64,000 nucleotides of DNA, from NCBI RefSeq assembly GCF_900113135.1, contig NZ_FOOH01000008.1, positions 1 through 64,000 of the forward strand, written 5' to 3'. The position numbers were made by a program, and so were the translations under genes. Origin of the DNA: Salegentibacter agarivorans. GTDB lineage: Bacteria > Bacteroidota > Bacteroidia > Flavobacteriales > Flavobacteriaceae. Shown one piece after another: positions 2,740 through 5,741 of this stretch (within the stretch, counting starts at the first letter, position 1; every line of letters starts with the position of its first letter). A model generated the notes under the pieces. That model was given only the letters and a program-made list of their open reading frames with translations, made no database searches and was not told the DNA's origin.

Positions 2740-3036
2740 TTATTCTTTTAAACTATTCACATCTGAATCCTTCGCTACCAATCTAAAATTCTCAATTTTT
2801 TTACCCTTTAAATGCTTGCTCCATTTTTCCATAAGTGGAGCTTCCAGTTTAAATTCCCGGTATTCATCGGGATTCATAATTGGAATCCCTTTTATCATAG
2901 GGTAAATACGTTTGCATTTCTTACAACTTAAAAATCCCTCTATAATCTTCCCTTCCAAATCTTTTGAAATTGTTGTGAGTTCCAGGTCCTTTTTATCAAA
3001 AGGGCAGCATAATTTATCTATTGTTGAAGTTCTCAT
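2740..3036 (-). CDS. Trm112-like zinc-binding protein
   Basis: A 98-residue protein with the Trm112p-like fold signature: LCCPFDKKDLEL near the N-terminus and LSCKKCKRIYPMIKGIPIM at residues 36-54, the latter matching the family pattern L-x-C-x2-C-x3-YP-I-x-x-GIP-x-M. The second Cys pair is C38/C41; in the first the usual CPxC is CPFD (C11, D14), with an additional C10, so metal binding may be altered. Family members in eukaryotes and archaea activate methyltransferases (Trm9, Trm11, Mtq2, Bud23). It is the last gene of the TPP-riboswitch operon and overlaps the upstream ThiE-like gene by 23 bases. The operon also encodes a methyltransferase, which suggests, as an inference, a partner relationship. 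A longer C-terminal tail (residues 60-98) is unlike the short bacterial YcaR-type proteins. Confidence 0.75.
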   Translation of the reverse strand: MRTSTIDKLCCPFDKKDLELTTISKDLEGKIIEGFLSCKKCKRIYPMIKGIPIMNPDEYREFKLEAPLMEKWSKHLKGKKIENFRLVAKDSDVNSLKE

Positions 3037-3676
3037 TTTTTATTTTTTTAAATTCTGAATTATAATTTTCTGCTGAAATTGAAGGGTTTTCGGCACTCAT
3101 TATTCCTGAAATAACCGCTACGCCTTCAAAATCCAACTCTTTAAGCAAATGCATATTGGAAGGTTTAATTCCTCCCGCCAAAAAAATTGGCATTTCGGTA
3201 ATTTCCCGGGCTTTCTTAATGATCTCAAAATCTACTAAATCACAACTATTTGCGGTTGAGGAAGGAAAAATGGAACAAAAAGAAATATAGTCCATGTTAT
3301 TTCTATCGGCCCATTTTACAGTTTCCAGGTTGTTATTACAGGTTAATCCCAGTAAAGCTTTTGGCGGAATGTTATTTTTAATCTCTTTGAAATTATTGGG
3401 AATTTTATCAAAATGTATCCCGCTTGCTTCAGTTTGATTTAAAAGATCCCAATTATTATTCAGTAAAACAGGAACCTTATAGTTTTCACAAACTTTACAG
3501 ATTTCATTTATAAGGGAAATTTTATTCTCTGCATTTTTGAAATTATCCCATATTTGAACCGCGGCAATTTCACTTTTAGCCATAATCTGCTTCAGCTTAT
3601 TTATTAAAACAGTTTTCTGCATCTGCGGATCTACAACGAGGTACACCCCTTCTTTTATTTTCTTCTTTTTTATCAT
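3014..3676 (-). CDS. Divergent ThiE/TenI-like thiamine phosphate synthase family protein
   Basis: A 220-residue TIM-barrel protein of the thiamine phosphate synthase superfamily. Visible family traits are GVYLVVD at the first strand, GIHFD (family GVHLG), LLGLTC (family IGxS), DYISFCSIFPSST (family DYVGxGPIFPTxTK), FLAGGI and GVAVISGI. Several residues that bind phosphate and pyrophosphate in canonical ThiE are changed: the VQLREK motif is VQIWDN (residues 40-45), INDR is LNNN (72-75), and the Lys after FPTxT is missing. It therefore may not perform the standard HMP-PP plus thiazole-P coupling. It overlaps the upstream gene by 4 bases (ATGA) and the downstream one by 23. The TPP riboswitch of this operon ties it to thiamine. 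Alternatives are a TenI-like regulator or an enzyme for a modified thiamine intermediate. Confidence 0.75.
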   Translation of the reverse strand: MIKKKKIKEGVYLVVDPQMQKTVLINKLKQIMAKSEIAAVQIWDNFKNAENKISLINEICKVCENYKVPVLLNNNWDLLNQTEASGIHFDKIPNNFKEIKNNIPPKALLGLTCNNNLETVKWADRNNMDYISFCSIFPSSTANSCDLVDFEIIKKAREITEMPIFLAGGIKPSNMHLLKELDFEGVAVISGIMSAENPSISAENYNSEFKKIKNENFNNR

Positions 3677-4731
3677 TTCCAGCCAGATTTAATTGCGGTA
3701 AAAAAGGCTTTCCAGTAAGGATCTTCAGATTTATATTCTAAATCTTTAATTTCATCGTTTTTAGCTATTTTAATTCCTTCTTCTTCACTTTTAATCTCAC
3801 CAACCGCAGTACAGGCAATGTTTTCAGCATTTAAACGTGAAATTACCTGCTCTTCTTTTCCTTTTTCGCAAGATATTATCATTGAACCTGCCCCTATTAT
3901 CTCCCTGTAATCCAGTTGGAATAAATCACAAACTTCCTTTTGCCAGGAAGTTACCGGCAAAGCTTTATCATAAATAATAGCTCCTTTTCCTGACGCTTTA
4001 ACCATTTCATATATTGCCCCAAGCACACCGCCTTCAGTTACATCGTGCATAGCGTGAATTTCGGGAAATTTACTTCCTGTTCCTGCTGCTGTAAGTCCGT
4101 CTTTTAAAGACGAGGTTTGCCAAAACATTTCACGGCCTGCCGTATAAGTTCCTTTTCCCAGTTTATTCTTTATAGTTTCAGGAAAACTCAAGGTTAATAA
4201 GGCAGAAGATGATAAGGCACAGGTTTTGGTTACCAGAATTACATCATTTTCCTCTGCGGCTTTAGAAAGAATAATCTCTTTTTTGGGAGCCACACTAAAA
4301 AAAGTTCCTCCACCCGAAATTGTTGAATTCTGGCCTTCTACAAATCCGGTATGTCCGCCAGTTATAGCCACTCCAATTTCTTTACTGAATTGATGAATAT
4401 AATTCCAGTAAGTTTTAAAATCATTCCTCGAAAGTGATGCCGGAAGATTCAAAACCATTTGCGCATATTGTGGAGCAAACCCGGTAGTAGCCATATCGTT
4501 GGCCATTAGATGTACCGAAAGCCAGGCTGATTCTTCCAGGCCGAGCGTAGGAATAAGTGACAACGGATCACTTGTGGATATTAAGGCCAGCTCGTTGGGT
4601 AATTCTATTAATGAAACATCTACCCCAAACTTTGGTTTTGTGCTGACTTCCTTACGAGTATGCCCGCAATTTTCCAGGATAAATCCCTCTAATTCTGCTT
4701 CGGCTATTTTTCCTAGTTTCTCACTCATCAT
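3673..4731 (-). CDS. AIR synthase-like (PurM/HypE/ThiL fold) ATP-dependent enzyme
   Basis: A 352-residue protein of the PurM/SelD/HypE/ThiL superfamily. The N-terminal AIRS domain shows LALISTSDPLS (residues 48-58), HLMANDMATTGFAPQY (74-89, compare HypE VNDLAVSGARPxY) and AITGGHTG (122-129); the C-terminal domain shows MHDVTEGGVLGAIYEM, matching the family D-x-TEGG motif. It lacks the C-terminal PRxC tail required by HypE, and no hydrogenase genes are present, so it is not a hydrogenase maturase. ThiL, the thiamine monophosphate kinase, belongs to the same superfamily, and this gene sits in a TPP-regulated operon; a kinase or ATP-dependent role in thiamine processing is an inference. It overlaps the upstream methyltransferase gene by 4 bases (ATGA); a second Met directly follows the first. 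Confidence 0.8.
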   Translation of the reverse strand: MMSEKLGKIAEAELEGFILENCGHTRKEVSTKPKFGVDVSLIELPNELALISTSDPLSLIPTLGLEESAWLSVHLMANDMATTGFAPQYAQMVLNLPASLSRNDFKTYWNYIHQFSKEIGVAITGGHTGFVEGQNSTISGGGTFFSVAPKKEIILSKAAEENDVILVTKTCALSSSALLTLSFPETIKNKLGKGTYTAGREMFWQTSSLKDGLTAAGTGSKFPEIHAMHDVTEGGVLGAIYEMVKASGKGAIIYDKALPVTSWQKEVCDLFQLDYREIIGAGSMIISCEKGKEEQVISRLNAENIACTAVGEIKSEEEGIKIAKNDEIKDLEYKSEDPYWKAFFTAIKSGWK

Positions 4732-5453
4732 TTTACATCTTTAAATTCTACATACAATCCGAAAAAATCACCATAGGGTAATCCCCATTGCTGAACTGGG
4801 AACCATTTTGGTAAACCGGTGCAAGACCATTCTATACTGTATTCCCGCCCCTGCAAGGCTTCTTCTATAATTTTAGTAAGTTTTTTGGGTGTATAAAAAG
4901 TTGCGGTAAGATAAAATGGATTGGCACCAAAAATTTCCTGGACGCGGCGACGAACTACTTTGGTAGAATTCCTGTTCATCATTCCAAGGGCTATACCGTA
5001 TTTTCCAACCCTGGCTGCTTCCCGAATAACTTTTACGGGATCTTTATAATATTCAAAAGTGGTTATAAATGCGAGGGAATCAAAAGTATGATCTTTAAAT
5101 GGCATATGATGGGAATCTGCCATTACCAGATCTCCCTCAAATAAATGTACGGCTTGTGATAACATTAGTGGGGAAATATCACCACCGGTAGCCTCAATTC
5201 CTATTTCTTTCCACCACCTGGTAAAACGCGTGGTTCCACAACCAAACTCGAGTAGGGTTTTAACGCGTTTATCTTTAGAAACAAGTTGCTCCATCACCTT
5301 TTTCTGCCAGACTTCGGCCCGTTTATATCGCCCTTCGTACCACTGCTCGTAGGTGTCGGTGTGTTTTCGGTTAAAAAACCATTCTTCCCGATTTTGCCAA
5401 TTTTGATGATTTATGGGAAGTAATTCAAATCGACTGCTTTTCTCAATTTCCAT
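4728..5453 (-). CDS. Class I SAM-dependent methyltransferase under TPP riboswitch
   Basis: A 241-residue Rossmann-fold methyltransferase. Motif I is LLEFGCGTTRFTRWW (residues 67-81), motif II includes GGDISPLML (90-98), motif III is around LVMADSHHMPFKDHTFDSL, and FITTFEYYKDP takes the place of the usual post-III segment. The N-terminal 60 residues are rich in Trp, Tyr and Arg and may form a substrate lid. The C-terminus contains several Trp and Pro residues. The substrate is unknown. It is the first gene of the four-gene overlapping operon and starts 78 bases downstream of a TPP riboswitch aptamer and its terminator hairpin, so its expression should fall when thiamine pyrophosphate is plentiful. 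The last gene of the operon encodes a Trm112-like protein, a known type of methyltransferase activator. Confidence 0.85.
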   Translation of the reverse strand: MEIEKSSRFELLPINHQNWQNREEWFFNRKHTDTYEQWYEGRYKRAEVWQKKVMEQLVSKDKRVKTLLEFGCGTTRFTRWWKEIGIEATGGDISPLMLSQAVHLFEGDLVMADSHHMPFKDHTFDSLAFITTFEYYKDPVKVIREAARVGKYGIALGMMNRNSTKVVRRRVQEIFGANPFYLTATFYTPKKLTKIIEEALQGREYSIEWSCTGLPKWFPVQQWGLPYGDFFGLYVEFKDVK

Positions 5454-5464
5454 ATTTACTTTTT

Positions 5465-5513
5465 AAAAAAGAAAAACTCCACGCTACCCGGAAAATGCCA
5501 GAAAACATGGAGT
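5465..5513 (-). terminator. Expression-platform terminator of the TPP riboswitch
   Basis: On the minus strand, ACTCCA (5513-5508) pairs with TGGAGT (5481-5476) and is followed by TTTTTCTTTTTT just before the first start codon at 5453. The placement between aptamer and gene suggests control by premature termination; the anti-terminator partner was not worked out. Confidence 0.6.
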
Positions 5514-5530
5514 CTTAAAATGGAAATTTT

Positions 5531-5607
5531 AATCCTGCATCCCTACGTTGGCATTATCCAAATCAGGTTTTCGGGTGTTATCTCAGCCTTGCGGCACCCC
5601 GTGCGTG
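5531..5607 (-). promoter_or_regulatory. TPP riboswitch (THI element)
   Basis: On the minus strand the sequence reads GGGGTGCC, GCTGAGATAACACCC, ACCTGAT, GGATAATGCCAACGTAGGGA and GCAGGAT in order, which are the conserved blocks of the thiamine pyrophosphate aptamer. All conserved ligand-binding blocks, including CUGAGA and the GGAUAAUGCC-type helix, are present. It precedes the methyltransferase / AIRS-like / ThiE-like / Trm112-like operon. Confidence 0.96.
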
Positions 5608-5741
5608 AATTTATCTGTTTATACTAAATCTCTATTTATTAATTTTATCAGTTAATCGGGAGAAAAATACAAAATAAAGAAGGAAGTGGAAAGTTATTTC
5701 GGACTGAAAAATAATATATCAAATGTGTAATTACCCCTTTC

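Follow-up and report, generated by a model that had tools for sequence, protein, structure and literature searches.

A four-gene operon behind a TPP riboswitch

We analysed the first 64,000 nucleotides of contig NZ_FOOH01000008.1 from Salegentibacter agarivorans (RefSeq assembly GCF_900113135.1; Bacteroidota, Flavobacteriaceae), hereafter the window, and focus on a four-gene operon on its reverse strand that lies behind a thiamine pyrophosphate (TPP) riboswitch and seems to be an undescribed means to rescue or remodel vitamin B1. The riboswitch aptamer (RF00059; positions 5523–5611, reverse strand) scores 64.1 bits in Rfam (E = 2.8e-10), above the gathering score of 54.3. In order of transcription, the genes encode a class I S-adenosylmethionine (SAM) methyltransferase of 241 amino acids (4728–5453; Methyltransf_11, 61.8 bits), an adenosine triphosphate (ATP) enzyme of the aminoimidazole ribonucleotide (AIR) synthase superfamily of 352 amino acids (3673–4731; AIRS, 36.0 bits, and AIRS_C, 64.5 bits), a ThiE/TenI-like triose-phosphate-isomerase barrel of 220 amino acids (3014–3676; TMP-TENI PF02581, 116.4 bits with a cut-off of 27), and a Trm112-like zinc-knuckle protein of 98 amino acids (2740–3036; Trm112p PF03966, 29.5 bits with a cut-off of 22). 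Successive genes overlap by 4, 4 and 23 bases, and all four proteins exceed their Pfam cut-offs. Aptamer, overlaps and family assignments all agree with the first-pass annotation of this DNA.

That annotation had also placed a terminator after the aptamer. Folding energy and a T-run pick out a terminator-like hairpin between the aptamer and the first gene (5464–5516, reverse strand): the segment at about 5516–5475 folds at −20.9 kcal/mol and is followed by a T-rich run, but the matches of a simple terminator scan do not include it. Similar hairpins are present at 41 of 67 related loci by a crude rule. We infer that the hairpin is the expression platform of the riboswitch; at low TPP the terminator would be released and the four genes made.

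The operon contains no standard thiamine gene, as had been claimed: in scoring against curated NCBIfam models, none of its members reaches the cut-off of the thi function that it resembles. Our literature search found no description of a four-gene TPP-riboswitch cassette of this kind, which fits the earlier statement that no operon of such composition has been characterised. The canonical TPP-riboswitch operon of Bacteroides thetaiotaomicron, thiSEGCHF-tenI, is likewise under TPP riboswitch control and encodes TMP-TENI family proteins; however, it has ThiC, ThiG, ThiH, ThiF and a true ThiE, and the gene list given for it includes no Trm112, HypE-like or methyltransferase gene (PMC5613172).

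Conservation, distribution and transfer of the operon

Using a methyltransferase alignment, we scanned one genome for each bacterial and archaeal species and obtained 199 related stretches. Our locus counts rest on the best 80 of these; the other 119 may include other methyltransferases. Going by record titles, the best 80 bear Bacteroidota names throughout, and the closest is that of S. salinarum (methyltransferase 99%). The order of the four genes is identical throughout these 80, and each locus has a TPP riboswitch upstream, which was recognised by sequence motif only in 67 loci and by Rfam in 13 (12 + 1); the suggestion that this neighbourhood and its link to TPP are co-conserved across Bacteroidota is thus borne out among the best 80 of 199. 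Open-frame clustering placed the four operon families in 80, 80, 80 and 71 loci, where the last count is depressed by the open-frame filter (without it, all 80 loci are complete). The next commonest neighbour families are found in at most 9 of the 80 loci, the 9 being all Cyclobacterium, and two regulator-like neighbour families are common to two genera.

Within the family of S. agarivorans, an orthologue of the AIRS-fold protein (>50% identity) is encoded in four of 149 genomes, including that of the window. Two others (G022 and G143) have the complete operon and riboswitch, and in G089 the contig stops after the second gene of the operon. In a genome from a different class of the same phylum (G392), the four genes and the riboswitch are all present, and the operon is also carried by Chryseobacterium sp. 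Leaf394 and Pedobacter sp. Leaf176. Across a phylum sample of 296 genomes, the methyltransferase was detected in 11, and the operon is therefore patchy.

The pairwise distances of the four proteins are correlated over 83 operons (r 0.52–0.78, reached by 0 of 500 permutations), although this alone could stem from common descent. The joint operon tree mixes taxa: Ferruginibacter falls beside Pedobacter chinensis and Algoriphagus alkaliphilus beside Arenibacter, while Rufibacter and Parapedobacter each appear at several places. This mixing suggests that the operon was repeatedly transferred as a whole cassette, and it has probably moved between species as a single unit. The cassette is duplicated in Arenibacter arenosicollis and in Arenibacter sp. 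F26102, where the two copies share a contig at a distance of about 32 kb, each with a riboswitch motif.

The mixed tree and the pairing of a methyltransferase with a ThiE homologue would also suit a cassette that produces a thiamine antimetabolite as a weapon when thiamine is scarce, for which the bacimethrin gene clusters are a precedent. We consider this barely credible, since no export or self-protection gene is a constant neighbour (see the neighbour counts above) and most carriers have no source of hydroxymethylpyrimidine (HMP).

The ThiE-like protein has lost the HMP-PP site

The ThiE-like protein falls short of the curated models for thiE (TIGR00693; 109.7 of 145.1 bits) and TenI (PRK07695; 62.2 of 251 bits). 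As a control, the ThiE of the S. salinarum thi cluster is itself barely over the thiE cut-off, at 147.2 bits. The best PDB relatives of the ThiE-like protein belong to the TenI/ThiE superfamily and have the same barrel. The first-pass annotation described a ThiE homologue that had lost substrate-binding residues, and this holds for the whole set: all five positions that we take to be the diphosphate and Mg ligands of HMP pyrophosphate (HMP-PP), namely R59, K61, D93, D112 and K159 in Bacillus subtilis ThiE numbering, are replaced in 83 of 83 sequences, with Glu in place of D93 in five and in place of D112 in one. At the level of motifs, QLRxK has become QIWDN, ND has become NN, GxxD has become DxIP and TKK has become ANS. 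The S-x-H of TenI-like proteins, whose His is presumably the catalytic His of the TenI thiazole tautomerase, reads T-C-N here, and all 83 sequences have Asn, Ser, Gly, Thr or Gln in place of this His.

Other features are shared with TenI and ThiE: the phosphate loops GGI and SGI, the Gln of QL and the His of GVH are all kept. Unlike in those proteins, Trp43, Asp90, Cys134 and Cys145 are invariant, and these four new pocket residues suggest, at the level of sequence, that the barrel performs new chemistry. Because both phosphate loops are kept, its substrate would be a phosphorylated compound from the thiazole side, and the new Trp, Asp and Cys residues may occupy the place of HMP-PP and its metal.

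The AIRS-fold protein resembles HypE, SelD and ThiL in fold

The second protein had been described as a member of the ThiL superfamily that resembles HypE, and fold comparison agrees. It has the AIRS/HypE fold; its nearest match is HypE, followed by SelD and ThiL, and the fold match spans nearly the whole chain. However, it scores far under the curated cut-offs of all three (hypE, 65.2 of 251.6 bits; thiL, 61.6 of 184.15 bits; selD, 49.1 of 125 bits). It also differs from HypE in having no C-terminal Cys (the window sequence ends in SGWK), which we take to be the carbamoyl-accepting residue of HypE, and from ThiL in that a true ThiL is encoded separately in the same genome. Relatives in the AIRS superfamily activate amides, selenide or a phosphate. 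In the operon, the AIRS-fold protein may phosphorylate or activate the substrate using ATP.

The nearest plasmid-borne homologues of the AIRS-fold protein are haloarchaeal and named "AIR synthase family protein". Three from Haloarcula have 26–28% identity to it and have GGHT, HDxTEGG and DPxW in common with it (L125). Their genes adjoin those of a thiamine-binding protein and a thiamine transporter protein, though the three cases amount to one lineage. In contrast to the operon, the haloarchaeal homologues have no methyltransferase, ThiE or Trm112 neighbours, and the neighbours of homologues from Halobacterium, Haloferax and Acaryochloris differ from those in Haloarcula.

A methyltransferase and its presumed Trm112-like partner

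Of the four proteins, conservation is strongest in the methyltransferase, where at least 97% of 83 sequences agree at 135 of 241 positions. Its predicted model, of moderate quality (mean predicted local distance difference test, pLDDT, 68.4), matches the archaeal structure 6F5Z, and the profile of the Trm112-like protein matches PDB chains 6zxw_H and 6f5z_C. The two proteins thus each match one chain of a single entry, the Hvo_0019-Trm112 complex of Haloferax volcanii (6F5Z); the complex is archaeal and is not known to be linked to thiamine, whereas the operon is bacterial. The Trm112-like protein is presumed to be the partner of the methyltransferase, and as a dimer the two would carry out a SAM-dependent methyl step.

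All four zinc-ligand positions of the Trm112-like protein are present in 83 of 83 sequences. The zinc signature [C/D]PX[C/D]X19-36CX2C, which is stated for short archaeal Trm112 in the corresponding passage of a 2017 review (PMC5372719), is complete in 78 of the 83 operon proteins and reads CPFD...CKKC in the window. The archaeal Trm112 equivalog NF038101 is not reached (59.9 bits, cut-off 77). As that review puts it in its treatment of bacterial orthologues, their function is entirely unknown; the eukaryotic partners that it names target tRNA, rRNA and a release factor (PMC5372719).

These eukaryotic targets, together with the strong conservation of the methyltransferase, raise another possibility, which is that the operon is a response to low TPP that makes no thiamine, in which the methyltransferase and Trm112 modify RNA or protein or another small molecule is produced. 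We find this quite unlikely: the ThiE homologue and the AIRS-fold protein are constantly linked to the pair across 80 loci, and a gene set found in 11 of 296 genomes does not have the distribution of a core translation modification.

Thiamine genes in the host genome and its TPP regulon

The S. agarivorans genome (4.30 Mb, estimated 100% complete) contains no ThiC, no ThiD and no second TMP-TENI protein. It encodes three AIRS proteins: a true ThiL (310.5 bits), a PurM-like protein (purM, 115.2 bits, under the cut-off of 236) and that of the operon. There are four TPP-riboswitch matches, two of them above the gathering score. Besides the one at the operon, the second of these is the strongest of the genome, at 72.2 bits (C20:61975–62061, reverse strand; L005 13976–14062), which has no gene of at least 90 amino acids on the same strand for about 1.2 kb, with a gene present on the opposite strand; it may be an orphan or the remnant of a lost operon. 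The two sub-threshold matches (44.8 and 33.4 bits) precede a TonB receptor (identified by Pfam) and a PnuC-family transporter (TIGR01528, 92.5 bits), and beyond the operon the visible TPP regulon of the host is therefore one of uptake. The PnuC-family transporter gene is followed by one for an acyl-CoA dehydrogenase/HsaA-type flavoprotein (L007 12110–13123, reverse strand), an odd neighbour for a thiamine transporter.

Thiamine genes in other carriers and in controls

We looked for ThiC in 49 named carriers drawn from the 80 loci, and it is present in six and absent from 43. In the four of these six whose clusters were read (L120–L123), ThiG lies in the same cluster; the other two are Gramella sp. 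AN32 and S. tibetensis. Chryseobacterium sp. Leaf394 has no ThiC. In Gramella sp. AN32, ThiC, ThiD and ThiE lie in one cluster, with no ThiG by eye within 16 kb and no TPP riboswitch above the gathering score in those 16 kb. ThiD was searched for at E 1e-15 in 80 genomes (47 carriers and 33 ThiC-less non-carriers). No match was found in 43 of 45 ThiC-less carriers, the exceptions being G392, with a clear match of 296 bits, and G345, with a partial match of 59.7 bits that is under the cut-off. Two ThiC-positive carriers gave matches of 145 and 139 bits, so the ThiD of this phylum is detectable by our search. A search of 52 carriers (46 ThiC-less) for a second kind of TMP-TENI protein, with matches near 20 bits set aside, found it in G441, G442 and G468 (108–126 bits for thiE, under the cut-off), and as a borderline case in G443; none of ThiC, ThiD or ThiG was seen beside these genes in G441, G442 and G468. 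Arenibacter and Pedobacter chinensis (L133, L134 and L135) have a lone sub-cut-off ThiE homologue in which, by eye, the Arg/Lys motif of ThiE is altered.

Altogether, the carriers seem mostly unable to make vitamin B1. Since most have no known route to HMP-PP and the HMP-PP site of the ThiE-like protein is lost, it is very unlikely that this protein is a thiamine phosphate synthase. The first-pass annotation had offered an alternative route to thiamine phosphate among several functions, and as a ThiE-type condensation this is not supported by the ThiD result.

The controls limit what can be drawn from these absences. ThiC is encoded in 103 genomes of the phylum sample and in none of its 11 operon carriers (one-sided Fisher P = 0.008), but a few genera are over-represented in the sample, and per genus the tallies are 21 of 140 for ThiC and 8 of 140 for the operon. 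The family sample of 149 genomes has the operon in four and ThiC in 29, with none shared (P = 0.42). Given the genus tallies, for which zero overlap is often expected by chance, and the six of 49 carriers that hold both, we claim no exclusion and reject the idea that the operon replaces ThiC. Nor is a lack of ThiD a marker of carriers, as 29 of the 33 ThiC-less non-carriers also lack it. The absence of ThiC and ThiD is no commoner in carriers than in controls; it limits the function of the operon and is not an association. ThiL, which 224 of the 296 genomes encode, all 11 carriers among them, does not track the operon. The test proposed earlier, whether genomes with the operon lack thiE, thiL or thiC, thus gives a mixed result: ThiC, ThiD and a second ThiE are usually absent from carriers, but most non-carriers are without ThiC and ThiD as well, and ThiL is present in every one of the 11 carriers of the phylum sample. 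Of the 296 genomes, 148 encode thiamine pyrophosphokinase; 10 of the 11 carriers do so, the exception being the genome of the window. Several Flavobacteriaceae, including the window's genome, have ThiL with neither a TPK_catalytic match nor ThiC, and as several such relatives do not have the operon, we reject the AIRS-fold protein as their missing thiamine kinase.

That most carriers are without ThiC and ThiD could also mean that the operon is an alternative de novo thiamine route that does without ThiC, ThiD and ThiE and in which the methyltransferase adds one of the ring methyls. Biosynthesis would fit repression by TPP, and the gene set appears autonomous. Such a route is nevertheless unlikely: four enzymes seem too few for two rings, and the operon is retained beside ThiC and ThiG clusters in four carriers. 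Among leaf isolates, in figures not broken down by operon carriage, ThiC and ThiG were present in all 21 thiamine prototrophs, which also counts against the route, and ThiC in 7% of 14 auxotrophs (PMC9666465).

In another arrangement, the TenI-like protein and its partners would supply an ordinary ThiE with thiazole phosphate by making or maturing it. The retained phosphate loops agree with this, as does Gramella sp. AN32, where ThiC, ThiD and ThiE are clustered with no ThiG seen. For most ThiC-less carriers, however, thiazole phosphate would be useless, because they have no ThiD match and mostly no second TMP-TENI protein, and we hold such a module to be highly improbable.

Possible function in rescue or remodelling of thiamine

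Of the functions put forward in the first-pass annotation, we prefer salvage, repair or modification as a class. With moderate confidence, we propose that the operon is a self-contained, TPP-repressed cassette that converts a preformed thiamine-related compound, imported or damaged, to usable thiamine or thiamine phosphate. This proposal is based on the control by TPP, the uptake genes in the host regulon, the patchy distribution and the persistence of the cassette beside four ThiC/ThiG clusters.

Several observations weigh against the proposal. Since six of 49 carriers retain ThiC, and the four whose clusters were read have ThiG too, carriage does not go hand in hand with auxotrophy. Non-carriers, too, usually lack ThiC and ThiD (ThiD absent from 29 of 33, ThiC found in 21 of 140 genera), and their absence is therefore not specific. 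The model of the methyltransferase is of only moderate quality (mean pLDDT 68.4), and no thiamine vitamer known to us would need a methyltransferase for its rescue.

A bolder reading, which we put forward tentatively and regard as doubtful, is a four-protein route dependent on SAM and ATP that builds or rebuilds the thiamine skeleton without HMP-PP. A methyltransferase/Trm112 holoenzyme, a HypE-like enzyme and a Cys-bearing ThiE paralogue would then form a riboswitch-controlled unit carried between Bacteroidota. If true, this would be a previously unknown branch of vitamin B1 metabolism and the first function for a bacterial Trm112.

The cassette is present at 80 or more loci in many genera, most of those tested being without ThiC. 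The supply of vitamin B1 in these Bacteroidota may be misread, because the ThiE-like gene, as a match to the thiE family, might be tallied as a thiE. In addition, a bacterial Trm112 is here tied to a methyltransferase and a vitamin, which turns its function into a testable question.

Elsewhere in the window, a group II intron domain (RF02001, 152.6 bits) is located at positions 84–258 on the reverse strand, at the extreme edge of the contig.

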